A stretch of DNA of 64,000 nucleotides from Embleya scabrispora (GTDB taxonomy: Bacteria > Actinomycetota > Actinomycetes > Streptomycetales > Streptomycetaceae). Positions 11,139-22,648 of the stretch are shown one piece after another (the stretch's first letter is position 1; each line of letters starts with the position of its first letter). The stretch is taken from contig NZ_MWQN01000001.1 of assembly GCF_002024165.1 (NCBI RefSeq), forward strand, positions 992,001-1,056,000, written 5' to 3'. Below the pieces are notes generated by a model. It ran no database searches and was not told the DNA's origin. It was given only the letters and a program-made list of their open reading frames with translations. Made by a program: the position numbers and the translations under genes.

Positions 11139-11175
11139 TTAGTTAACTGATCTCATCGGTAACTTGGAGGCGTAC

Positions 11176-12645
11176 ATGCCCGCCGCACCCCCCGATCCCG
11201 AAACCAAGATCGACGGACCACTCCTGCGCCTGATGCTGGTGATGCTGCTCGGCGGCGTGATGGGCATCCTCGACACCACGATCGTCAACGTCGGCATCGA
11301 CACCCTCGGCGCGCACTTCGACGCGCCGCTCGAAACCATCGAATGGGTGGCCACCGGCTATCTGTTGGCCCTCGCCGCGACCGTGCCCCTGGCCGGTTGG
11401 GCGGCCGGCCGCTTCGGCGGCAAGACCGTCTGGCTGACCGGCCTGATCGTCTTCCTCGCCGGCTCCGCGCTGTCCGCGGTCGCCTGGAACGCGGGCAGCC
11501 TGATCGCCTTCCGGGTGATCCAGGGTGTCGGCGTCGGCGCCCTGGAGCCGACCCTGCTGACCATGCTGGCCGTCGCCGCCGGACCCAAGCGGGCCGGGAA
11601 GATGATCGGCATCGTCGGCGCGGTGGTCACCCTCGGCCCGATCCTGGGTCCGGTGCTCGGCGGCGTGCTGCTCGAACACGTCGACTGGCGCTGGATGTTC
11701 ATCATCAACCTGCCGATCGGCCTGGTCGCCCTGGCGCTGGCGTACCGGCAGATCCCCGCCGACCCGCCGCGCGAGGGCGACCCGCCGCCGCTGGACGCCC
11801 GGGGCATCGCGCTGCTGTGCCCGGGATTCGCGGTGGTCGTCTACGGCCTCTCCCAGGCCGCGGGCGACAGCGGCTTCGGGGCACCGCGCGTGCTCGCGGC
11901 ACTGATCGCGGGCGTCGCGCTGATCGCCGGCTACGTCCTGCACGCGCTGCGCGTCGAGCACCCGCTGATCGACGTACGGCTGTTCCGGATCCGCGGCTTC
12001 GCCGGCGGCATCGGTGCGGTGTTCCTGACCGGCATCCTGCTCTTCTCGCTGCTGTTCCTGATCCCGCTCTACTACCAACTGGCGCGCGACCGGGGCGTGA
12101 TGGCGGCCGGACTGCTGCTGGTACCGCAGGGGGTCGGGGTGTGGATCGGCATGCCGATCGCCGGGCAGCTGTTCGACAAGGTCGGCGCCCGGGCGCTGAT
12201 CCCGTTCGGCGGGGTGTTGGCCGCGCTGGGCATCCTGGGCTTCAGTACGGCCGACGGCGGCACCAACACCGCGCTGCTGGTGGGCTATTCGGTGGTGACG
12301 GGAGCCGGACTCGGCTTCGTCGGAGCACCCGCGATGTCGTCGGTGTTCGGCTCGGTGGCACCCGAATCGGTGCCCAGCGCCACGGCGGCGGTGTACCTGA
12401 GCAATCAGATCGGCGGCACGCTCGGTATCGCGATCGCCGCGCTGGTCCTGCAGAACCGCTCCGAGGCGCACTCGGTCGTCCCGGCCTTCCAGGGCACGTT
12501 CGGCTACCTGATCGCGATCGCCCTGGTGGTCGGCGCGGTCGGTCTGGTACTGCGCCGCGGTCCTTCGGCGGACCCGGCCGCGCCTGCCGAAGCGGCGGAG
12601 GAAGGCGACGCGGCCCTGCCCGAACCCGCGCGCCAGGAAGCCTGA
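11176..12645 (+). CDS. MFS drug exporter, DHA2 (14-helix, EmrB/QacA-like) family
   Basis: A 489-residue membrane protein with the 14-helix pattern of DHA2 proton-driven exporters. Motif C-like LGPILGPVLGGVLLEHVDWRW follows helix 4-5 and family motif D1 appears early (GVMGILDTTIVNVGID). The start at ATG 11176 is chosen over the upstream in-frame ATG at 11164 because GGAGG lies 6 bp before it. The C-terminal tail is acidic and Ala-rich. It is divergent from a TetR gene, the usual arrangement for inducible efflux. A very strong hairpin follows at 12655-12695. Confidence 0.93.
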   Translation: MPAAPPDPETKIDGPLLRLMLVMLLGGVMGILDTTIVNVGIDTLGAHFDAPLETIEWVATGYLLALAATVPLAGWAAGRFGGKTVWLTGLIVFLAGSALSAVAWNAGSLIAFRVIQGVGVGALEPTLLTMLAVAAGPKRAGKMIGIVGAVVTLGPILGPVLGGVLLEHVDWRWMFIINLPIGLVALALAYRQIPADPPREGDPPPLDARGIALLCPGFAVVVYGLSQAAGDSGFGAPRVLAALIAGVALIAGYVLHALRVEHPLIDVRLFRIRGFAGGIGAVFLTGILLFSLLFLIPLYYQLARDRGVMAAGLLLVPQGVGVWIGMPIAGQLFDKVGARALIPFGGVLAALGILGFSTADGGTNTALLVGYSVVTGAGLGFVGAPAMSSVFGSVAPESVPSATAAVYLSNQIGGTLGIAIAALVLQNRSEAHSVVPAFQGTFGYLIAIALVVGAVGLVLRRGPSADPAAPAEAAEEGDAALPEPARQEA

Positions 12646-12654
12646 TCGGCATCG

Positions 12655-12695
12655 GCCCGGTTCGCGTCGGCACGATGCGGCGACGCGAACCGGGC
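12655..12695 (+). terminator. Strong hairpin terminator after the MFS gene
   Basis: The 15-nt arms GCCCGGTTCGCGTCG (12655-12669) and CGACGCGAACCGGGC (12681-12695) are perfect complements with an 11-nt loop, starting 10 bp after the stop. There is no U-tract, which is common for actinomycete terminators. Confidence 0.75.
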
Positions 12696-12908
12696 TCAGG
12701 TCCGGTCGGGCGACTCGATCGGCCGGGTCGACCTCCTGCCCGAGCGGTCGGAGCCGGAGGACGGTGCGCGCGGCCCGAGTGACGCGGGTCACTCGGGGCG
12801 ATCCGAAAATCCTTGCGACGGAGCGTGAGCACGCGCCGTTCGGCGTGTCCCACGAGCACGTGATCCGGCGGGAGTCGGCACGACTCGACGGTGCACACGG
12901 GGGATGCG

Positions 12909-14711
12909 ATGGGCGATGGCAGACAAGCGGAAGCAGTTGCTCCGGTAGATCCGAGCAAGGACCGCCCGGCGGCTGCTGCTCGAACGGGCCTCGACGCGGA
13001 GCCGGCCGATGGGCCGATCGAGCGGTCCGGGGACCGGTCCGGCGACCGCTCCGAGAGCATTACATCGCCGGAGGAGCCGACCGGGCTGCTCTACCACCTG
13101 ATCCGCTGGCCGATCCGCATCGTCGCGTTGATCGTGCTGTTGCCCGCCCGCCTGGCGTGGGAACTGCTGAGGGTCGCCGGGCGCGCGGTTCGGGACTGGG
13201 TGCTGATCCCGACGGGGCGACTGGTCGCGGTGATCGGGCGCGGATTGCGGTGGTTGGTGTGGGACCGGTTCGCGATACCGATCGCACATGCGCTCGCGGC
13301 CGTCGGCCGCGGGCTGCGCTGGGCCGTGGTGGGGCTGGGGCGCGGGCTGCGCTGGGCCGTGGTGGTGCCGTGGCGCGGGGCGGTGGTGGTTGCCCGGGTG
13401 GTGTGGCGTGGGCTGCGCTGGGCCGTGGTGGTGCCGTGGCGCGGGGCGGTGGTGGTTGCCCGGGTGGTGTGGCGTGGGCTGCGCCGGGCCGTGGTGGGGC
13501 TGGGGCGCGGGTTGCGCCGGGCCGTGGTGGTGCCGTGGCGCGGGGCGGTGGTGGTTGCCCGGGTGGTGTGGCGCGGGTTGCGCCGGGGCGTGGTGGGGCT
13601 GGGGCGCGGGCTGCGGATGGTCGGGCGATACGGGATCGTGCTGCCGCTGCGGTGGGTTCGGGACGCGGTGGCGCGCCCCCTGGCCACCGGTCTGGTCACG
13701 GCCGGTCGATGGGTCGCCCATGCGCTCGGGCGCACGTTGTACTACCTCGTGCTGGTGCCCGGGTGGTGGTCGTGGCGCGCGGCTCGGGGGCTCGCGCGGG
13801 GCTTCGGGCGGGGGCTGTACTACGTCCTGGTCGTACCGGCGAAGGCGCTGTGGCGTGGCCTCGTCGCCTGCGGTCGGGTCGCGTTGCGCGGGGCGGGCGC
13901 CCTGCTTCGGGGTCTGGCACTGGTGGTGCGCGGTATCGCCTTCCTCCTTCGGCGGCTGGTGCTGATCCCCGCCCGGTGGGTGTGGCGGGGCGCGGTGGTG
14001 GTGACCCGGGCCGTCGGACGGGGCCTGTACCGCGGCCTGTTCGTCCCGGCGCGATGGCTCGCTCGTGGCTTCCTGCGCGGACTGCGCGCGACCGGGCGCG
14101 GATTGCGCGTCGGGTTCGTCGTGTTGGTGGCGCGGCCGGCGGCCTGGACCTGGCGCCGGGGCATCCGCCTCGGCCGCGCGACCGGTCGGGGCCTGTACCT
14201 CCTGACCGTGCTGCCGGCGCGATGGGCGGCCCGCAGGGTCGTCCTCCTCGTCCGCCTGCTCGGCCGGGGCCTGTACGTGCTCACGGTGCTTCCCGCCGGG
14301 TGGGCCGGCCGCAAGGTCGTGCTCGTGGTCCGGTTCCTCGGTCGGGGCCTGTACGTGCTGACGGTGCTTCCCGCCCGGTGGGCCGGCCGCAAGGTCGTGC
14401 TCGTGGTCCGGTTCCTCGGCCGGGGGCTGCGGTTCGTGATCGTGCGGCCCGCGCGGTGGGGCGGGCGGCGTGCCCGGTCGGGTGCGCGCATGGCCGGTCG
14501 CGGGCTGCGGGCGACGGTGGTGCGGCCTTCGGCGTGGGTCGGTCGGACGATGGTGGCGCCCGCCCGTCGGGCGGCCCGGTCCGGCTGGAGGCACGGCGTC
14601 GCCCCGGTCCGGGCCGTGTTTCGCACCGTCTGGGAGCAGACCCGCCTGGCCGGCCGCGACGTACGCCGCGCGCTGGGCTTTCGCAGACGCGGCTCCTCCG
14701 ACGACAGGTAG
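12909..14711 (+). CDS. Arginine-rich, nearly acid-free tandem-repeat protein of unknown function
   Basis: I do not recognise this 600-residue protein. The start at ATG 12909 follows GGGGGA; a GTG at 12891 is an alternative. Residues 1-~65 are acidic, Pro/Ser-rich and look disordered. The rest alternates short hydrophobic stretches (VVV, LTVLP, VLVVRFL) with RGL, RW and GR motifs. Two repeat families are visible: 11- and 22-residue units (VVGLGRGLRWA; VVVPWRGAVVVARVVWRGLRWA) around residues 140-230, and 26-residue units (GLYVLTVLPARWAGRKVVLV...) around 454-505, with diverged copies between. Residues 123-575 contain a single acidic residue (Asp252), so the body is extremely basic. Inference: a membrane- or polyanion-associated cationic scaffold. 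The hydrophobic runs are mostly too short and Arg-interrupted for ordinary membrane helices. Codon use matches the actinomycete pattern, and a GNAT gene and a CYTH-CHAD gene follow. Confidence 0.8.
   Translation: MGDGRQAEAVAPVDPSKDRPAAAARTGLDAEPADGPIERSGDRSGDRSESITSPEEPTGLLYHLIRWPIRIVALIVLLPARLAWELLRVAGRAVRDWVLIPTGRLVAVIGRGLRWLVWDRFAIPIAHALAAVGRGLRWAVVGLGRGLRWAVVVPWRGAVVVARVVWRGLRWAVVVPWRGAVVVARVVWRGLRRAVVGLGRGLRRAVVVPWRGAVVVARVVWRGLRRGVVGLGRGLRMVGRYGIVLPLRWVRDAVARPLATGLVTAGRWVAHALGRTLYYLVLVPGWWSWRAARGLARGFGRGLYYVLVVPAKALWRGLVACGRVALRGAGALLRGLALVVRGIAFLLRRLVLIPARWVWRGAVVVTRAVGRGLYRGLFVPARWLARGFLRGLRATGRGLRVGFVVLVARPAAWTWRRGIRLGRATGRGLYLLTVLPARWAARRVVLLVRLLGRGLYVLTVLPAGWAGRKVVLVVRFLGRGLYVLTVLPARWAGRKVVLVVRFLGRGLRFVIVRPARWGGRRARSGARMAGRGLRATVVRPSAWVGRTMVAPARRAARSGWRHGVAPVRAVFRTVWEQTRLAGRDVRRALGFRRRGSSDDR
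13326..13589 (+). repeat. In-frame 33/66-bp tandem repeats
   Basis: Near-identical 66-bp units begin at 13359, 13425 and 13524, with 33-bp units at 13326 and 13491. All lengths are multiples of 33, so the reading frame is kept. The near identity at DNA level, including third positions, suggests recent unequal duplication within the arginine-rich repeat gene. Confidence 0.85.
14268..14423 (+). repeat. Two near-identical 78-bp in-frame repeats
   Basis: Units starting at 14268 and 14346 encode the same 26-residue block (GLYVLTVLPA, R or G, WAGRKVVLV, VRFLGR) and differ at only a few bases. A more diverged copy precedes them at ~14190. They sit within the arginine-rich repeat gene. Confidence 0.85.
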
Positions 14712-14820
14712 CTCGATACCACCATTTCGCCCCGTACCATCCCGAGAGGTCCCCCAATCATGGGGTGTCCATTGCCGTCGGCGGCTTCTGGAATGGGACC
14801 AAATCTCGTTGAATGTCGTC

Positions 14821-15249
14821 GTGGATACGAATGTGGCGTCGATTCGGCGTGTGACGACGGTGGCCGATGTGCTCGCGGCCGGGGACCTGTTCGACGAACC
14901 GGTGCGCCCGGACTGGGCGGCCCGCTTCCTGGGCGAGGCGGGCCATCACATATTGCTCGCCTACGTGGCCGCCACCCCGGTCGGGATGGTCACCGGCGTC
15001 GAGACGACCCACCCCGACAAGGGCACCGAGATGTTCCTGTACGAACTGGCCGTCGCCGACAGCCACCGGCGCCTCGGCATCGGCCGTGCCCTTACCGAGG
15101 CCCTGGCCGAACTGGCCCGCAAACGCGGCTGCTACGGCATGTGGGTCCTCACCGAACGCGCCAACGAGGCCGCCATGGCCACGTACCGCTCCACGACCCC
15201 CACCACCGAATCCGACCACACCATGTTCGGCTGGACCTTCGACACCTGA
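14821..15249 (+). CDS. GNAT-family N-acetyltransferase, AAC(3)-I-like
   Basis: A protein of about 142 residues with a single GNAT fold. The beta4 strand and acetyl-CoA pyrophosphate loop read FLYELAVADSHRRLGIGRAL (residues ~77-96). The following helix and GCYGMWVLTERANEAAMATYRSTT resemble the AAC(3)-I aminoglycoside acetyltransferase group, which also lacks extra domains. The start is uncertain: GTG 14821 is used here, while TTG 14809 and GTG 14833 are in frame, and none has a strong ribosome-binding site. The true acceptor substrate is unknown; aminoglycoside acetylation is only a family-level possibility. It lies between the arginine-rich repeat gene and the CYTH-CHAD gene on the same strand. 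Confidence 0.85.
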   Translation: MDTNVASIRRVTTVADVLAAGDLFDEPVRPDWAARFLGEAGHHILLAYVAATPVGMVTGVETTHPDKGTEMFLYELAVADSHRRLGIGRALTEALAELARKRGCYGMWVLTERANEAAMATYRSTTPTTESDHTMFGWTFDT

Positions 15250-15416
15250 CCCCACCCGACCTGGGTGATCCGTGTCGGACCGGCCGATTCGGGCACACGT
15301 ATCCGCGAGCCCGGTCGGCGAACTCCGATCTCGGACGTGCCGACCATCCGCCCCGGGGATCGTTCGACCACACGGTCGAACGCCTCGTGCCGCCCCCCAG
15401 GAAGCAGGTGCGTGCC

Positions 15417-16934
15417 ATGGCAGAGGTCGTGCGTGAGGTCGAGCGGAAGTATGTGGCGCCGGAGGGGGTGGGCGTGCCGGACTTCGCCGGGGTGGCGGAC
15501 GGGGTCCGGGTCGAGGTCGGCGAGACGGTCGAGTTGGACGCGATGTACTTCGACACCCCCGGCCTGGCACTGGCCGCACGCGGCATCACGCTGCGGCGGC
15601 GGACCGGAGGCGGGGATGCCGGGTGGCATCTGAAGCTGCCCGCCGGGGTGGATGCGCGCGACGAGGTACGGGCGCCGCTGGGTGCGTCCGAGCGGGTGGT
15701 GCCGGACGAACTCGCGGTGCGGATCCGGGCGTACACACGCGGCGCGGAGCAGGTGCCGGTGGTGCGCCTGCGGACCGTGCGCGAGGTGCGGGTCGCCCGC
15801 GCGGACGGACCCACGCTGGCCGAGATCGCGCACGACACGGTGACCGCGGACGTCTTCCTCGGGTCGAAGGTGACCACCACCTCCTGGGTCGAACTCGAGG
15901 TCGAACTGGTCGACGGCGACACGGCGTTGGCAAACGCGCTGGAGCGGCGACTGGGCAAGGAGGGCTGGCGGCGCTCCGAGTCCGCGTCCAAGCTCGGGCA
16001 GGCGCTGGCCGCGGCGGGAGCGCAGCCGAAGCGTCGGATCGCGAAGCCGCGGTCGGGCAGCGCCGGGGCGGTGGCGCTGGACTACGTCCGGGAGCAGGTC
16101 GACACCATGTTCGCGTACGACCCCCGGGTCCGGCTCGACGAGCCCGATTCCGTGCACAGGATGCGCGTCGCCACCCGGCGCCTGCGCAGCGCGTTCCGGG
16201 TGTTCTCGCGGGTGCTCGACGAGCGGGTGACCCGGATTCTGGGCGCGGAACTCAAGTGGCTGGCCGCGGAGTTGGGTCGGGCCAGGGACCAGGAGGTATT
16301 GGCCGCGCGATTGCGCGAGCGGGTCGCGGCGCTGCCGGCCGAGGCGGTGCTGGGCCCGGTGGAGGCCCGCTTGACCGCCTGGGACGCACGGCGCCGCAAC
16401 GAGGCCCGGGCCCGGATCCTGGCCGATCTCGACGGCCCCCGCTACTTCGCGCTGCTGGACGCGCTGGATGCCCTGGTCGCGCGGCCGCCGTTCACCGTCA
16501 AGGCGCATCGTCCCGCCCACAAAACGGCCACGGTGGCTCTGCGCCGGGCCGACCGCCGCACGTTCCGGCGCGCCCGCGTCGCACTGCGCACACCCGCCGG
16601 CCGGGCCCGGGACACCGCCCTGCACGAGGTACGCAAGGCCGCCAAACGGGTCCGCTACGCCGGCGAGGCCACCGGCCCGGCCCTGGGCAAGCCGGCCAAG
16701 CGGCTCGCCAAGCGGGCCAAGGCGATGCAGGGCCTGCTCGGTACGCACCAGGACAGCGTGCAGACGCGCAAGGCGCTGCGGCGGCTGGCGATCGCCGCGC
16801 ACGCGGCGGGCGAGAGCTCCTTCACGTGGGGGCTGCTCTACGGCGAGGAGGTCGCGCTCGCCCGGCGGGTCGAGGCCGACTTCCCCACGCACTGGGCGGA
16901 CTTCGCCCGGTCCCGGCTGCGCCGCGAGCTCTGA
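15417..16934 (+). CDS. CYTH and CHAD domain-containing protein
   Basis: A 505-residue cytosolic protein. The N-terminal CYTH domain (residues ~1-200) starts with the signature EVERKY and has the alternating charged strands LRRR, WHLKLP, LEVELVD. Such domains bind triphosphates and polyphosphate with divalent metal. The C-terminal CHAD domain (~215-495) carries the repeated conserved histidines and basic residues (SVHRMRVATRRLRSAFRVF, LHEVRKAAKRVRYAGE). CHAD domains bind inorganic polyphosphate and can target proteins to polyphosphate granules. The start at ATG 15417 is preceded by AGGTG. Whether the CYTH part is catalytic here (triphosphatase) is not established. Confidence 0.93.
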   Translation: MAEVVREVERKYVAPEGVGVPDFAGVADGVRVEVGETVELDAMYFDTPGLALAARGITLRRRTGGGDAGWHLKLPAGVDARDEVRAPLGASERVVPDELAVRIRAYTRGAEQVPVVRLRTVREVRVARADGPTLAEIAHDTVTADVFLGSKVTTTSWVELEVELVDGDTALANALERRLGKEGWRRSESASKLGQALAAAGAQPKRRIAKPRSGSAGAVALDYVREQVDTMFAYDPRVRLDEPDSVHRMRVATRRLRSAFRVFSRVLDERVTRILGAELKWLAAELGRARDQEVLAARLRERVAALPAEAVLGPVEARLTAWDARRRNEARARILADLDGPRYFALLDALDALVARPPFTVKAHRPAHKTATVALRRADRRTFRRARVALRTPAGRARDTALHEVRKAAKRVRYAGEATGPALGKPAKRLAKRAKAMQGLLGTHQDSVQTRKALRRLAIAAHAAGESSFTWGLLYGEEVALARRVEADFPTHWADFARSRLRREL

Positions 16935-17145
16935 CGGCGCCCACCGGTCACGCCCTTCGACCCCGATCTCCGGCCGCATTTTCCGGCCATGATCCCGGCC
17001 GCCACATCTCCACTCGGGAACCACCCGGTCACGACTCGGGGGTTCCGCTTTCGGCGCGTCGGTCCAACCGCTACGGTCGGTCCGGCGCAAGTGGGGGCGG
17101 GCGCGTGACAGCGCGCACCGAAAGTGTGGGGATCCAGGGGTGGGC

Positions 17146-18675
17146 ATGGACGACTGGCGTATCGACGTACCTACGAGCGGCAGCAAGCACCTGCCTCCGG
17201 ATCCCGGGTACATCAAGGGACTCGCCAGTCAGGGCTATCGCTTCGAGGAGGCGGTGGCCGACCTCGTGGACAACTCGATCGACGCCGGCGCGTCCGAGGT
17301 CGTGGTGCATTTCCGGCGCACCGGCGACCTGTTGACCTCGCTGGTCGTGGTGGACAACGGACGCGGCATGACCGAGGCCGAGTTGGACACCGCGATGACC
17401 GTCGGCAAGCGGCGGGCGTACGACGACACGGCGCTCGGCATGTTCGGCATGGGTCTGAAGGCCGCGTCCTTCAGCCACGCCGAGAGCGTCACGGTGATCA
17501 GCCGGGCCAAGCGGGCCGGCACCGTCGGGCGGCGCTGGCGGACCGAGTCGGCGCAGGAAAGCTTCCAGTGCGACATCGTCGAATTGGAGTTCGCCAAACG
17601 TTTCCTCGACCTGTACGACGAGTACGTGGTGTGGAACGGCACGGCGGTGCGCTGGGACGGCGTCCGCGACTTCCCGGCGCGCGGTGACGCCGGCCAGACC
17701 GACATCTACGTGACCAAGACGATGCGTTCGCTGGCCGACCACCTCGGTCTGCACCTGCACCGGTTCCTGGCCGACGGGCGGATCCGGATCACCATCGCGG
17801 TCTCCGGGACCGACGACGACGTGCCGCCGATGACCTGGCAGGTCCAGGCCGTGGACCCGTTCGGCTACGCCGTGTCCGGACTGCCGGGATATCCGCGCGT
17901 GTTCACCACGACGCTGGACGGCGTCGGCCCGCTGACGCTGACCGCGCACGTATGGACGCCGCGCTCGAACGCCGAGCAATTCCGCCTGCCCGGCGGCATC
18001 CTGGCCCGTCAGGGCCTGTACGCGTACCGTCACGACCGGCTCGTCCAGGCCGGCGGCTGGTACGGCCTGCGCCAGAGCGAGCAGCACCTGTCGCTGGCCC
18101 GGGTCGCGTTCGACCTGCCGGCCGACTCCGAGCATGCGTTCGGGTTGACCGTGAAGAAGGCCGAACTCCAGCCCGTTCCGGGCTTCGTGGACGCGGTCGA
18201 GCAGGCCGTGGACGCCGACGGGCACACCTTCCTCGACTACCTCAAGGACGCCGAGGGCGCCTATCGGCAGGCCCGGACCACCACGCGCGAGCGCAAGGCG
18301 GTGCTGCCGCCCGGGAAGGGCTTCGCGCCGGAGCTGCGCGCGGCGATCGAGGAGGAACTGCCGTTCGTCCCGGGCGAGGAGCCGATCGAGGTGCGCTGGG
18401 TGCCGCTGGGCGGGGACGTGTTCTTCTCGATCGACCGGGACGAGCGCCGACTGCTGCTGAACAAGCAGTTCCGCGCCGCGCTGCTCGGCGGTCGGCGCGG
18501 CGGGCTCAACGACGTGCCGGTGCTCAAGACGCTGCTGTACCTGCTGATGAACGAGGCGTTCACCGGCGAGCGCATCGGCCCCCGGGTCAAGGACAACCTC
18601 GACCTGTGGCAGTCGTTGCTGCTCACCGCGGTCAAGAGCGAGACGGCGAAGTACGGTTCGGAGGGCGGCGCGTGA
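17146..18675 (+). CDS. MORC/GHL-type (HSP90-like) ATPase of a restriction/defence operon
   Basis: A 509-residue protein with a GHKL ATPase domain. The N box is DLVDNSIDAGA (39-49), the G1 box VVVDNGRGM (67-75, Asp70) and the G2 box LGMFGMGLKAA (97-107). The set matches the MutL-related, MORC-like ATPases that Iyer, Abhiman and Aravind (2008) described in prokaryotic restriction-modification operons. The C-terminal half has no recognised nuclease motif. The start at ATG 17146 has AGGGG 5 bp upstream; GTG 17140 is an in-frame alternative. The stop overlaps the DUF4420 start (GTGA), so the three genes are translationally coupled. It presumably acts as an ATP-driven clamp or sensor for the nuclease and helicase encoded next. 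Confidence 0.9.
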   Translation: MDDWRIDVPTSGSKHLPPDPGYIKGLASQGYRFEEAVADLVDNSIDAGASEVVVHFRRTGDLLTSLVVVDNGRGMTEAELDTAMTVGKRRAYDDTALGMFGMGLKAASFSHAESVTVISRAKRAGTVGRRWRTESAQESFQCDIVELEFAKRFLDLYDEYVVWNGTAVRWDGVRDFPARGDAGQTDIYVTKTMRSLADHLGLHLHRFLADGRIRITIAVSGTDDDVPPMTWQVQAVDPFGYAVSGLPGYPRVFTTTLDGVGPLTLTAHVWTPRSNAEQFRLPGGILARQGLYAYRHDRLVQAGGWYGLRQSEQHLSLARVAFDLPADSEHAFGLTVKKAELQPVPGFVDAVEQAVDADGHTFLDYLKDAEGAYRQARTTTRERKAVLPPGKGFAPELRAAIEEELPFVPGEEPIEVRWVPLGGDVFFSIDRDERRLLLNKQFRAALLGGRRGGLNDVPVLKTLLYLLMNEAFTGERIGPRVKDNLDLWQSLLLTAVKSETAKYGSEGGA

Positions 18676-19730
18676 CGGGCGCGGACGGGCGGAGCCGACA
18701 CCTGGGCTGCGAGGCGCTGCGCGACCATCTGGACAACGGGGCACCGATGTTGATCCCGGTCGAGGGCGACCCGCCGCTGTACTGGCACCTGGAGGCGGGC
18801 GGCCGGCGACCGGCGCTGCGCATCCCGGTGCCGGCCGGCACGAAGGCGCCCCGGCTGGGCATGCAGGGCGTGCGGGCGGTGTGCGTCCTGGACGGCGGCG
18901 AGCAGTACCTGCACGTGTACACCGAACAGCTCGACCTGCTGCGCGAGTTCCACATCGTGTGCTGCGAGATCGCGGATCGGGTGCAGGTGATGAAGTCCCC
19001 GCCGGTGGTGGCGGTTCGCACCACGGTCCTCCTCTGGCGCAAGCTCCTGGCCCGGGGCCGGCGTATCTCGCTGGAGGCGGAGATCGGCCTGTTCGGCGAG
19101 TTGCTCACGCTGATCGGCCTGGCCGAGGCACGCGGGTGGCACGCGGCGGTCCGGTCCTGGCAACACCCGGACTGCGCGGATCACGATTTCACCGTCGGGC
19201 CGTACGACGTCGAGGTCAAGACCGTGACCGGACGCGCCCGTGTACATACGGTCCACGGGCTGGGCCAGCTCGCGCCCCACGCCGACCGACCGCTGTGGTT
19301 CGTCTCGCACATCCTGGACGAGAGCGACACCGGCCGCTCGGTGCTCGGCCTGATCGAGGGCATTCGTTCGACGATCCGCGTACACGCGCCGGACGTGCTG
19401 GACGATTTCGACACCCGCCTCAAACTGGGCACGGACAACGAGGCCGAGATCCCTCGCGAACGTCGGTGGGTTTCGGCCGGAAATCCGTTGGCGTTCCCCG
19501 CCGACGCCGATTTTCCGCGCCTGACCGAGAACATTCTCGTCACGCTGCCGGAGGCCGTCGCTCGGCGCATCGTCGACATCGACTACCGCATCGACGTGGC
19601 CGACCTGGTCCCCTCGATCGCACCCGCCCCCGACGGGATCGACCACGCCGTCGACCTCTCCCGGGTGCTCCCGCCCGACGTCGCGTCGGACCTGTCCGAG
19701 TCGAACCAGTCGAAGGGCGGCGCTTCGTGA
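18672..19730 (+). CDS. PD-(D/E)XK motif protein (DUF4420), putative nuclease of the MORC-Z1 system
   Basis: A 352-residue protein matching the DUF4420 pattern. A helix with EAEIGLFGELL (residues 135-145) is followed by the restriction-nuclease core: Asp172 in HDF, then EVK at 181-183. This is the Asp...Glu-X-Lys layout of PD-(D/E)XK enzymes. Family knowledge: DUF4420 genes occur almost only beside Z1 helicases and MORC ATPases. The GTG start overlaps the MORC stop, and its stop overlaps the Z1 start. It is likely the DNA-cleaving subunit; target and specificity are unknown. Confidence 0.88.
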   Translation: MTGADGRSRHLGCEALRDHLDNGAPMLIPVEGDPPLYWHLEAGGRRPALRIPVPAGTKAPRLGMQGVRAVCVLDGGEQYLHVYTEQLDLLREFHIVCCEIADRVQVMKSPPVVAVRTTVLLWRKLLARGRRISLEAEIGLFGELLTLIGLAEARGWHAAVRSWQHPDCADHDFTVGPYDVEVKTVTGRARVHTVHGLGQLAPHADRPLWFVSHILDESDTGRSVLGLIEGIRSTIRVHAPDVLDDFDTRLKLGTDNEAEIPRERRWVSAGNPLAFPADADFPRLTENILVTLPEAVARRIVDIDYRIDVADLVPSIAPAPDGIDHAVDLSRVLPPDVASDLSESNQSKGGAS

Positions 19731-22648
19731 CCGAAGAACTCGCGCTTCTCGCGCTGCACCGCGCGGCCTTCGGCGGCATGTCCGCCGGCCCGAAGAATCT
19801 GACCAAGGCACTCGCCTACCACGCCGACGAGCATCCCGGCCCGCTGCCCGACCTCGGCGAGACCGCGTTGCGCCGCCGACTGCACCACGCGCACCCGGAC
19901 GACGCGCTGCTCATCCTGTGGCGCGATCGACTCAGCCGCTGGGACTTCGCCGACGGCGACATCCCGCCCAACACCGACGCCCGCCGCGCGGCGACCTACG
20001 ATGCCCTCGGTCTGGAGCGGGGCACGCGCGAACTCCTCGATCGGCGCGCGCCATTCGCGCGAAGCTCAGGCGCTGTGGTGATCACCGACGAAAGCTGGGT
20101 TTCCTGGTACGGGGAGGATGTCGCGCGGCACCACAGCCACTACTGGGACGCTTATCGGGAGACCCTGCTCGGCAAAGGATGGGCGCCCGAGGCCGTCGCC
20201 GCGCTCGACCGCAACACCACCCGCGTGGTCGAGCGCCTGGCCGATCCCACCTGGGACCAGCCCTATCAGGCCAAGGGGTTGGTGGTCGGCTACGTGCAGA
20301 GCGGCAAGACCGCCAACTTCACCGGCGTCGCAGCGAAGGCGATCGACGCGGGTTACCGCCTGGTCATCGTGCTCACCGGCACCATCGAGGCGCTGCGCGC
20401 GCAGACCCAGCGCCGCCTGGACATGGAACTCGTCGGCGTCGAGAACATCTACTACGGCCAGGACCCGGACTCGGGCACCCTCGCCTTCCGCGACTACGAC
20501 TATCTCGACGACCGGGACCGGCTGGACGGCAGGTTCCTGCGCCACGGAGCGTTGCCGTCCCGACTCGGCGGGTTCGACATCGTCCGGCTGACCCGGCATC
20601 AGGACGACTACCAGGCGCTGCGTCAGGGGCTCAGCGCGCTGGAGTTCGAGAAGGCGGATCGGTTCACACCGCTGTACGCGCCGGAGAACCTGCATCGCAG
20701 TTCGGCCCGGCTGATGGTGGTCAAGAAGAACGCCTCGGTGCTGAAGAAGCTGGTCAAGGACCTGGCCCGGATCAAGACCGAGCGCGGCGAGATCCCCGCG
20801 CTGATCATCGACGACGAGTCGGATCAGGCGTCGGTCAACACCTCCGACCCGAAGAAGTGGGCGCAGGACCAGGTCCAGCGCACGGCGATCAACGGGATCA
20901 TCTCGGAACTGCTCGGCATGCTGCCGCGCGCCCAGTACATCGGTTACACCGCGACCCCGTTCGCGAACGTCTTCATCGATCCGGCCGACTCCGAGGACAT
21001 CTTCCCCAAGGACTTCGTCATCTCGCTGGACCGCCCGGACGGTTACATGGGTGTCGCCGACTTCCACGACATCGACTCCACGATTCCCTCGGCCGAGCGC
21101 ACCGTGGCCAACTCGGCCGGGCTCGCGCACGTACGCTCGGTGCGGCCGGCGCATGACGACGACGACAGCGATCTTCGCACCGCCATCGACATGTTCGTGC
21201 TCACCGGCGCGATCAAGCTGTTCCGCGAGGATCACGGGCTGGGCGCGGACCACTTCCGCCACCACACGATGCTCGTGCACGAATCGGTGCGCACCCATGT
21301 GCACCGGGACCAGGCCCAGCGGATCAACGCGATCTGGCGCCGTGCGGGGTATCTCGGCGCGGGGGCACACAAGCGCCTGCGCGCGCTGTACGACGAGGAC
21401 GTGTACCCGGTCAGCGAGGCACACGCGGCGGGTGCGTCCATCCCCGACTCGTTCGCCGACATCGCCCCCTACATCGGCATCGCGGCGATGCGGATCGAGG
21501 ACTCGAACGGCAGTCCGGTCGTGGTGGTCAACGGCGACAAGGAGATCGAGCAGCGCGCCGCCGACTTCGACCGGGACAAGGTCTGGCGGATCCTGGTCGG
21601 CGGCGCCAAGCTCTCGCGCGGCTTCACCGTCGAGGGCCTGACCGTCTCCTACTACCGTCGCAAGACGCTGACGGCGGACACGCTCATGCAGATGGGCCGC
21701 TGGTTCGGCTTCCGCAAGAACTACCGCGATCTGGTCCGGCTCTACATCGGCCGCGACGAGGGTGGTCGCAACGGGGACCTGTACGAGGCGTTCGAGGCGA
21801 TCTGCCGGGACGAGGAGGAGTTCCGCGACCAGCTCCGGCTGTACGCCGAACTCGTGGACGGCTCACCGCAGGTGACGCCGGCTCAGATTCCGCCCCTGGT
21901 CACCCAGAGGTTGCCGTGGCTCAAGCCGACGGCGCGCAACAAGATGTTCAACGCGGAACTGGTGGAGACCCGGTCGCCGGGCCGATGGGTGGAGCGCTCG
22001 GCCTACCCGAGCAAACCGGCCGAGTTGCGCCACAACGTGGAGCGGTTCGAGCCGGTGATCCGGTCGCTGGCGGCGGAGCGCATCGAACTGGCCTATCCCG
22101 TGCAGGATCGGTTGTTGCGCTTCCCCGCCTATATCGGGCGCATCGCACACGCTCCGCTGCTGTCGGTGCTGCGCGAACTGCGCTGGGCCGAACCCGCCCA
22201 GTTCCGGCCGGATCTGGCCTACCTGGAGAACCCGGAGATCGCCGCGAAGATCGACGACTGGGTGGTGATCGCCCCGCAGTTGCAGAGCCCCAACCTCGAC
22301 CCGGTGACGCTGCACGGCTTCGGGCCGCTCGACGTGGTGAGTCGGCGTCGGCGCGAGGGCGGACTGTTCGACCAGGTCAGCTTCGGTACCCATCGATTCG
22401 CGGCGCGGCGGATCGTCGGCACCGACACCTCGATCGGCGACCCGGTCGCGGACGGCCTGGCCGGACCCCGGCGGGGCTGCCTGCTGGTCTACCCGACCAT
22501 GGAGCCGGAGAAGAACGACCTCGTGATGGCGTTCGCGCTCGTCCCCCCGGTCACCGCTGTCGGTCGCGACCGGCGCCTCGTCGCCTTTCGGGCCAAGGAC
22601 TCCTCCCGGGGCGCGGCCGCGATCGTGGCGGCGCCGGCGCCGGTGTGA
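19727..22648 (+). CDS. Z1 domain-containing superfamily II helicase-like ATPase
   Basis: A 973-residue protein. After a ~180-residue N-terminal region comes a helicase core with Walker A GYVQSGKT (188-195) and Walker B IIDDESD (360-366). Motif III-like YTATPF starts at 407, followed by the Z1 region. A late motif QMGRWFGFR starts at Gln655 and plays the arginine-finger role of motif VI. These are hallmarks of the Z1 family found in restriction-modification neighbourhoods with MORC ATPases and DUF4420. The GTG start overlaps the DUF4420 stop by 4 nt. It likely translocates on or remodels DNA for the associated nuclease. A strong hairpin ends the operon at 22652-22699. Confidence 0.92.
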   Translation: MTEELALLALHRAAFGGMSAGPKNLTKALAYHADEHPGPLPDLGETALRRRLHHAHPDDALLILWRDRLSRWDFADGDIPPNTDARRAATYDALGLERGTRELLDRRAPFARSSGAVVITDESWVSWYGEDVARHHSHYWDAYRETLLGKGWAPEAVAALDRNTTRVVERLADPTWDQPYQAKGLVVGYVQSGKTANFTGVAAKAIDAGYRLVIVLTGTIEALRAQTQRRLDMELVGVENIYYGQDPDSGTLAFRDYDYLDDRDRLDGRFLRHGALPSRLGGFDIVRLTRHQDDYQALRQGLSALEFEKADRFTPLYAPENLHRSSARLMVVKKNASVLKKLVKDLARIKTERGEIPALIIDDESDQASVNTSDPKKWAQDQVQRTAINGIISELLGMLPRAQYIGYTATPFANVFIDPADSEDIFPKDFVISLDRPDGYMGVADFHDIDSTIPSAERTVANSAGLAHVRSVRPAHDDDDSDLRTAIDMFVLTGAIKLFREDHGLGADHFRHHTMLVHESVRTHVHRDQAQRINAIWRRAGYLGAGAHKRLRALYDEDVYPVSEAHAAGASIPDSFADIAPYIGIAAMRIEDSNGSPVVVVNGDKEIEQRAADFDRDKVWRILVGGAKLSRGFTVEGLTVSYYRRKTLTADTLMQMGRWFGFRKNYRDLVRLYIGRDEGGRNGDLYEAFEAICRDEEEFRDQLRLYAELVDGSPQVTPAQIPPLVTQRLPWLKPTARNKMFNAELVETRSPGRWVERSAYPSKPAELRHNVERFEPVIRSLAAERIELAYPVQDRLLRFPAYIGRIAHAPLLSVLRELRWAEPAQFRPDLAYLENPEIAAKIDDWVVIAPQLQSPNLDPVTLHGFGPLDVVSRRRREGGLFDQVSFGTHRFAARRIVGTDTSIGDPVADGLAGPRRGCLLVYPTMEPEKNDLVMAFALVPPVTAVGRDRRLVAFRAKDSSRGAAAIVAAPAPV

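Follow-up and report, generated by a model that had tools for sequence, protein, structure and literature searches.

A candidate giant amphipathic helix protein of Embleya scabrispora whose tandem repeats match whole turns of one predicted helix

Gene organisation, reading frame and composition

The stretch of 64,000 nucleotides from Embleya scabrispora analysed here (the window) contains at 12909..14711, on the forward strand like all features of the window given below, a reading frame that is open throughout and encodes the 600-residue protein announced in a preliminary description of this DNA. The sequence GGGGGA stands 4 bases 5′ of the ATG, and a scan of 12600-15400 found no promoter or terminator. 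The GC content of the three codon positions (0.794/0.596/0.894) resembles that of the neighbouring transporter gene (0.735/0.496/0.917), a pattern that is absent from the overlapping ORFs, both in the +2 frame (0.870/0.766/0.611) and in antisense (0.885/0.605/0.779). The frame is intact in two further Embleya genomes, that of Embleya hyalina, where the product has 85% amino acid identity, and a third one (G002), where it has 52%; the head, the N-terminal module, the C-terminus and the frame are all retained across the Embleya species. The dN/dS of this long copy is 0.43 against E. hyalina and 0.66 against the third genome, reaching up to 0.82 inside the repeat array, while that of the transporter neighbour is 0.072 and that of the short Embleya paralogues described below, where constraint is clearer, is 0.21-0.37. 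Because the frame is kept in two other Embleya genomes at these ratios, 12909..14711 looks translated but loosely constrained.

Upstream lies the gene of an MFS transporter of the DHA2/EmrB type (11164..12645; TIGR00711, 3.6e-94), which was judged unrelated. MFS genes also stand by three relatives of the repeat protein in another bacterial family (f18), with just 31-34% identity to the transporter of the window, and the shared neighbour was taken as a coincidence. The next gene downstream, at a distance of 97 bp, encodes a GNAT acetyltransferase (14809..15249, with an inferred TTG start; PF00583, 1.4e-16), and it is followed by the gene of a CYTH-CHAD protein (15411..16934; PF05235, 9.6e-59; PF01928, 1.7e-12). 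Just downstream of the latter, the region 17140-22645 holds Mza anti-phage genes (MzaB 1.7e-34, MzaD 3.8e-10, MzaC 9.2e-64).

The 600-residue protein contains 110 Arg, 32 Trp, 13 Asp and 8 Glu. Thirteen acidic residues occur through residue 56 and the others at positions 85, 96, 119, 252, 576, 584, 598 and 599. The composition count bears out the earlier claim of an acid-free body, in which D252 is the sole acidic residue from 120 to 575. Three regions can be distinguished. The acidic head (residues 1-56, 12909..13076), with its 13 Asp/Glu, has no helix in the AlphaFold2 model, which is coil to residue 57 at low confidence (pLDDT 38). The conserved N-terminal module (residues 57-135, 13077..13313) is the region best shared with a short paralogue and carries invariant Arg, Pro and Trp columns. 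The body (residues 66-578, 13104..14642) is delimited by a coherent amphipathic phase of 3.72 residues per turn in Fourier and helical-wheel analyses; its 513 residues include 99 Arg/Lys against 5 acids, and Arg, Lys and His make up 20% of it and are nearly its only charged class, with a net charge of about +2 per 11 residues.

Repeats and helix geometry

The repeats of 11, 22 and 26 residues that had been described before were recovered by TRF, in arrays whose copies are still alike in DNA. The units found measured 66 bp (95% match), 99 bp (93%), 165 bp (92%) and 78 bp (82-85%), several of these rows being one and the same array. The first array (13298..13621) combines 66-, 99- and 165-bp units with register steps of 33 bp, so that 11, 22, 33 and 55 residues correspond to 3, 6, 9 and 15 turns. 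The second (14183..14464; the same register was also placed at 14132-14365) consists of 78-bp units, that is, 26 residues or 7 turns. The autocorrelation of Arg positions gave 26, 11, 7, 33, 22, 15, 52, 41, 48, 56, 37 and 30 as its 12 top lags, every one of them at most 0.13 turn from a whole multiple of 3.72. The 11-, 22- and 26-residue repeats are whole turns of one helix, a relation that the preliminary description missed.

The hydrophobicity spectrum of the body (513-514 residues, scanned from 60° to 180°) peaks at 96.75°, equivalent to 3.721 residues per turn, and none of 200 shuffles reached this peak. In 15 out of 15 proteins the peak was found at 93.0-97.5°, with 0/200 shuffles reaching it in ten of them and 1-7/200 in five. 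On a helical wheel of 513 residues the fraction of Arg, Lys and His is 0.55-0.58 at 150-210° and 0-0.02 at 300-60°. The placement of the other residues was measured with the phase taken from Arg/Lys alone, leaving out residues without a clear local Arg phase. The 39 Trp/Tyr fell at about ±90° from the stripe (axial R2 0.69), the 20 Pro opposite to it (159°, R 0.95), and Gly was axially placed too (R2 0.49), each of these values being matched by 0/500 permutations. The aliphatic residues V/I/L/M/F leaned weakly to the far side (R 0.19), as they did in 194/500 permutations. Pooling of 28 related proteins placed 512 Trp/Tyr on an axis of 85° (R2 0.50) and 265 Pro at 139° (R 0.85). The layout, with a cationic stripe, aromatic borders and an apolar rest, matches what is expected of an interfacial helix.

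Structure prediction with AlphaFold2 gave for the short paralogue a single helix from 50 to 265 (216 residues; mean pLDDT 72, pTM 0.23) with no hairpins. For the window protein, modelled from 3 sequences at a pLDDT of 38, the body was split into several helices, with short strands in the last part. The fold of the short paralogue found no match in the PDB at E up to 10, a search that says little when the query is a lone helix.

Because the sequence is repetitive, the shuffle and permutation statistics are inflated. When amino acids were relabelled with the repeats kept, the peak stayed at 90-105° in 61% of 500 trials and the observed moment was reached in 9.6%. Two of the three antisense frames also peak, at 96.75-97.25° (0.153 and 0.130 against 0.234; 0/200 shuffles each), and for the +1 and +2 readings the spectrum does not rise above the shuffles. 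Better evidence is provided by where Trp, Tyr and Pro are placed and by the phase of insertions and deletions in diverged, less repetitive members.

Insertions and deletions by whole turns

Indels were collected among pairs of the 28 proteins at ≥50% identity and considered distinct by length and context. The 247 distinct indels comprised 12 of one residue, which were dropped, and 235 of at least two residues. The commonest lengths were 4, 7, 8, 11 and 19, and the absent ones were 2, 5, 6, 9, 13, 17, 21 and 24, together with 30, which is on phase. At 3.72 residues per turn the phase resultant was 0.50 with a mean phase of −1.3°; the resultant is broad, at 0.48-0.50 across periods from 3.65 to 4.0, and is centred on zero near 3.72 alone. 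Random deletions simulated in the same pipeline gave a resultant of 0.08 (257 recovered), so that the whole-turn pattern does not come from the aligner. When six indels longer than 55 residues were set aside, 189 of the remaining 229 fell within a quarter turn of whole turns, a class that takes up 23 of the 44 lengths from 2 to 45; the indels overlap and are kin by descent, and an exact probability is withheld. Among the E. hyalina gaps, of 22, 10 and 4 residues, that of 10 is off-phase. There is thus a bias by which most indels of the family fall on whole helical turns. In the long copy, at the level of the sequence, the pattern is conserved more than the letters.

A widespread family without a name

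Sequence searches of Pfam, NCBIfam, PHROGs, PADLOC and the PDB left the protein unrecognised. Pfam gave no match in it at E up to 1, hence no PAT/perilipin domain, and the CHAD domain is present in the neighbour and not in the window protein. The PHROG matches seen over three proteins (7.9e-4 to 0.26) were taken as chance, and a plasmid collection with one Streptomycetaceae member gave no match. Literature searches found, among the matches listed, no paper on the protein; they found nothing on SCO2600-2602, and nothing combining a long amphipathic helix, Streptomyces and membrane curvature. The earlier view that the protein has no recognised family thus stands for the curated libraries, which are silent, and falls for actinomycete genomes, in which a profile found many uncharacterised homologues. 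Likewise, no characterised family like it is named in the libraries, yet the protein belongs to a widespread uncharacterised family and has an architectural analogue in the giant 11-mer helix of perilipin 4.

The genome of E. scabrispora contains a second member elsewhere, a paralogue of 271 residues (E 3.6e-11, 49% identity over residues 51-151). A profile built from this short form and its relatives (A1) found members in at least 76 of 150 Streptomycetaceae genomes, 4 Embleya included, and in 5 of 17 genera. In the class, members were found in 30 of 296 genomes, 9 of these in f18. The A1 search scored part of the candidates, and the search rows read were those free of internal stop marks. 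In the genome of E. scabrispora, where 14 of 75 first-look candidates were scored, the short member was listed and the window copy was not; the long copy of E. hyalina was listed at 3.1e-18. No long copy was found in the fourth Embleya genome (G003), an assembly of 1650 contigs.

The N-terminal module is characterised by the motif GCLxxxxRxPxRIxxLxxxxPxRxxW, of which R66, P68, R70, P79, R81 and W84 are present in the window protein. The Cys of GCL, situated just before the helix, is nearly invariant (11/11 short members), but all three long copies from Embleya have Leu at this position; the Cys may be a site of lipidation or of redox chemistry. The window copy is longer than the extracted members other than the Embleya long copies (600 residues against 214-489) and richer in Arg. 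In a tree of the N-terminal module (83 columns and 32 rows, with 15 of 28 inner branches open and four rows lacking the motif left out) the long and short Embleya copies form one clade with a support of 98/99. Because of this clade, the window gene is most simply explained as an Embleya-lineage duplicate that grew. An origin from a copy of the Streptomyces type is unsupported, the same tree grouping the long with the short Embleya copies. Match scores of the C-terminal 70 residues were highest for an f18 member (119), followed by the Embleya short copies (76-96), the rest scoring 23-82.

Genomic setting of the family

From 80 family places and the f18 matches, 20 stretches of 7-14 kb around chosen members were fetched, and their genes were called by codon-position GC. 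In five of them the repeat gene escaped this calling: L066, L072 and L074, where it was placed by profile match, and L078 and L003. A TIGR03936-like gene was found within 3.5 kb in 12 of the 20 stretches (12 of the 14 from the same family), RNase E in 11 and a TIGR03960 B12-radical-SAM gene in 9. The remaining eight stretches are six f18 loci, L071, with only the radical-SAM side in view, and the long copy of the third Embleya genome. The usual locus of the family reads PBP2-RodA-(CYTH/CHAD)-TIGR03960-family gene-TIGR03936-RNase E, and genes for RodA, a PBP2 fragment, L21, L27 and Obg extend it where examined. The window copy does not lie beside TIGR03936 and RNase E; the short Embleya paralogue does.

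Some rearrangements were seen along this locus. In the E. scabrispora genome, TIGR03960 and the short paralogue (G000:C1:4586000-4600000) are about 22 kb apart on opposite strands, and a gene for an M48 peptidase takes the place next to the paralogue that TIGR03960 still occupies in G002 and G003. In L066 (6818-8134) and L071 (3162-5987), extra genes, a GNAT acetyltransferase among them, separate the repeat gene from TIGR03960. They stand close to where the radical-SAM gene ends, which is the region reported to hold the phi-Joe attB. That attB site has been placed near the end of a SCO2606-like radical-SAM gene, and SCO2603 is a serine integrase (PMC5311408). The distribution of SCO2606 is reported to match that of the adjacent mre cluster SCO2607-2611 (PMC4255298). 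Because attB lies near the end of a SCO2606-like gene and SCO2606 adjoins the mre cluster, the family member of S. coelicolor is probably among SCO2600-2602.

The CYTH-CHAD protein of the window has 47-50% identity to five counterparts, and in other Streptomycetaceae such counterparts are often encoded near family members. Its gene lies 709 bp from the long copy in the window, and the distance is 709 bp in E. hyalina (G001) and 753 bp in G002, these being the 3 of 4 Embleya genomes in which a long copy was found. Among the matches listed, and with neighbouring pieces merged by hand, CYTH-CHAD occurs within 30 kb in at least 48 of the 80 family places and within 5 kb in at least 27, and 32 places have none within 30 kb. 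Some genomes (G067, G141 and G147, for example) have a full-length CYTH-CHAD match and are outside the 76 family-positive genomes, and in G003 the CYTH-CHAD gene has other neighbours. A strict partnership was rejected, the two genes being not always together.

Proposed function and alternatives

The body of the protein is probably, in our judgement and with real room for doubt, a cationic giant amphipathic helix seated in the interface of an anionic membrane, perilipin-4-like but unrelated to perilipins and perhaps serving the envelope. Computation shows the reading frame, the family and its locus, the coherent helical phase, where Arg, Trp/Tyr and Pro lie, and the preference of family indels for whole turns; membrane binding, the choice of leaflet, the scaffold role and the history of duplication are inferences from these. 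The helix of about 513 residues would extend some 77 nm in the membrane plane, if fully helical at 1.5 Å per residue. The membrane would be anionic, the cytoplasmic membrane with its inner leaflet being the likeliest candidate. Upon contact with anionic lipid the body would fold into a rod held by its 99 Arg/Lys and its apolar underside, with a continuous Arg stripe toward phosphates and cytosol, Trp/Tyr along both borders between the polar and apolar faces, and the lipid side taken up by Pro and aliphatic residues. Since each repeat spans a whole number of turns, an array that gains or loses 11, 22, 26 or 33 codons would alter the length of the rod and leave the stripe unbroken on its face. 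Longer rods would be expected to bind better, which is what has been reported for PLIN4 (PMC5889406). The acidic head might remain in the cytosol, where it may bind partners. The protein would probably coat the membrane or serve as a cationic scaffold on it, perhaps in the growth of the envelope, a role guessed from nothing but the locus. Lipid droplets could be its surface instead; the triacylglycerol producers listed in PMC10699116 include Streptomyces.

Several observations weigh against the interfacial helix. The AlphaFold2 model of the window protein is poor and the pTM of the short model is low. With the phase fixed by Arg the aliphatic residues are weakly placed, even if Arg, Trp/Tyr, Pro and Gly are ordered. 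Pro, which occurs about every 26 residues in the body, could kink the helix, and just 29% of 18-residue windows pass Eisenberg's surface line. Repetition inflates the statistics, and the indels share descent. Lastly, the A1 profile omitted the window copy, and the C-terminus, outside the long copies, best matches an f18 member.

The preliminary description had proposed a scaffold bound either to a membrane surface or to a polyanion. Computation supports the first, through the single-stripe helix, the Trp/Tyr on both borders and the lack of a segment of transmembrane length; the second accounts less well for a helix whose surface is mostly apolar. A polyanion scaffold, in which the Arg stripe would hold a wall polymer, nucleic acid or polyphosphate and might do so together with the CYTH-CHAD neighbour, is an unlikely reading that has two points in its favour: the net positive charge along the body and the frequent proximity of CYTH-CHAD, a domain whose proteins are reported on polyphosphate granules (PMC10892726). 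It leaves the placement of Trp/Tyr and Pro unexplained, and the family places without CYTH-CHAD, the CYTH-CHAD genomes outside the family-positive set and the different neighbours in G003 count against it.

Right-handed coiled coils of the 11/3 and 15/4 types share with this protein the lags 7, 11, 15, 22 and 26 and the turn of 3.72 residues. It is accordingly conceivable, and again unlikely, that hendecad or pentadecad periods of 11 and 15 residues let at least two helices associate as a rod or fibre in the cytoplasm instead of laying one on lipid. A hendecad coil would have a Pro-free core stripe and a charge-balanced surface; what was found is Pro opposite Arg, where it would occupy the core, Trp/Tyr favouring the borders, and, with R/K/H at a fifth of the body, 5 acids in 513 residues available for pairing.

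A bolder variant keeps the helix on the membrane and bends it. Pro is usually on the convex side of a bent helix; lying opposite Arg here, it would turn the lipid face outward, fitting the concave inner surface of a tubular hypha. Such bowed rods, of about 32 to 77 nm as tuned by whole-turn gain and loss, might read or set hyphal geometry. Given that the usual family site adjoins the PBP2-RodA genes, they would be cationic partners, matched in curvature, of the wall machinery of MreB and RodA, a proposal we regard as rather improbable.

It is very unlikely that the protein is polytopic, with 26-residue units acting as membrane-spanning or re-entrant hairpins. Short hydrophobic runs do alternate with Arg/Gly stretches, and Trp/Tyr beside Arg are also usual at the ends of transmembrane segments. 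The longest run without a charged or strongly polar residue is, however, 14 residues in the window protein and 11 in the short paralogue, where about 18 are needed, and because of this no ordinary membrane-spanning helix is present; throughout the body one face carries an Arg roughly once in five residues, and the short form is modelled as one helix without hairpins. Least probable of all is a fast-drifting, perhaps dispensable GC-rich repeat ORF with the helix as a by-product of composition and repetition, for even though the dN/dS values are high, 74 of the 150 family genomes had no A1 match with part of the candidates scored, and antisense frames and relabelled repeats often keep the period, the frame, head, N-terminal module and C-terminus are kept between Embleya species, the short Embleya paralogues are more constrained, the +1 and +2 readings are without a peak and the residue placement recurs in diverged members.

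Comparison with known systems

The interfacial helix proposed here is closest in architecture to human PLIN4, which likewise has a very long amphipathic helix of near-identical tandem units with an 11-residue periodicity. The helix of PLIN4 is reported to be slightly wider than 3.6 residues per turn and to bind better in longer constructs; it comprises 29 33-mers of weak hydrophobicity, with 3 positive and 2 negative residues in each (PMC5889406). In contrast, 33 residues of the window protein contain on average about 6 Arg/Lys and 0.3 acids; the protein is rich in Val, Leu and Trp, contains 26-residue units and Pro at about the same interval, and is bacterial. The PAT domain and four-helix bundle of perilipins have no counterpart in it by Pfam at the threshold given above.

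Also named in PMC5889406 are the 11/3 helices of alpha-synuclein and the apolipoproteins. Those helices bind lipid and carry both charges. The window protein shares their 11-residue periodicity, but its helix of about 513 residues is longer and almost purely cationic. Hendecad coiled-coil proteins have 11-residue repeats that amplify in tandem and a right-handed period, unlike which the window protein has Pro opposite the stripe, Trp/Tyr at the borders and an imbalance of acids and bases.

The window gene is itself a member of the family found at the PBP2-RodA-TIGR03960-TIGR03936-RNase E locus, as indicated by the N-terminal module, the placement of Arg, Trp and Pro and the whole-turn variation in length, and it departs from the family in its greater length and Arg content, its location elsewhere and the Leu in place of the GCL Cys. 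To our knowledge, giant amphipathic helices are animal proteins such as perilipin 4. If the proposal is true, a bacterial, nearly acid-free and Trp-belted version beside cell-wall and RNase E genes would extend this class, and the bias of indels to whole turns would show selection on a helix face straight from sequence, in proteins whose repeats and rapid change put them beyond the usual analysis of conservation. In conclusion, in a locus that has itself been studied, with the reported attB of phi-Joe nearby (PMC5311408), the proposal offers a testable candidate for a gene that has not.
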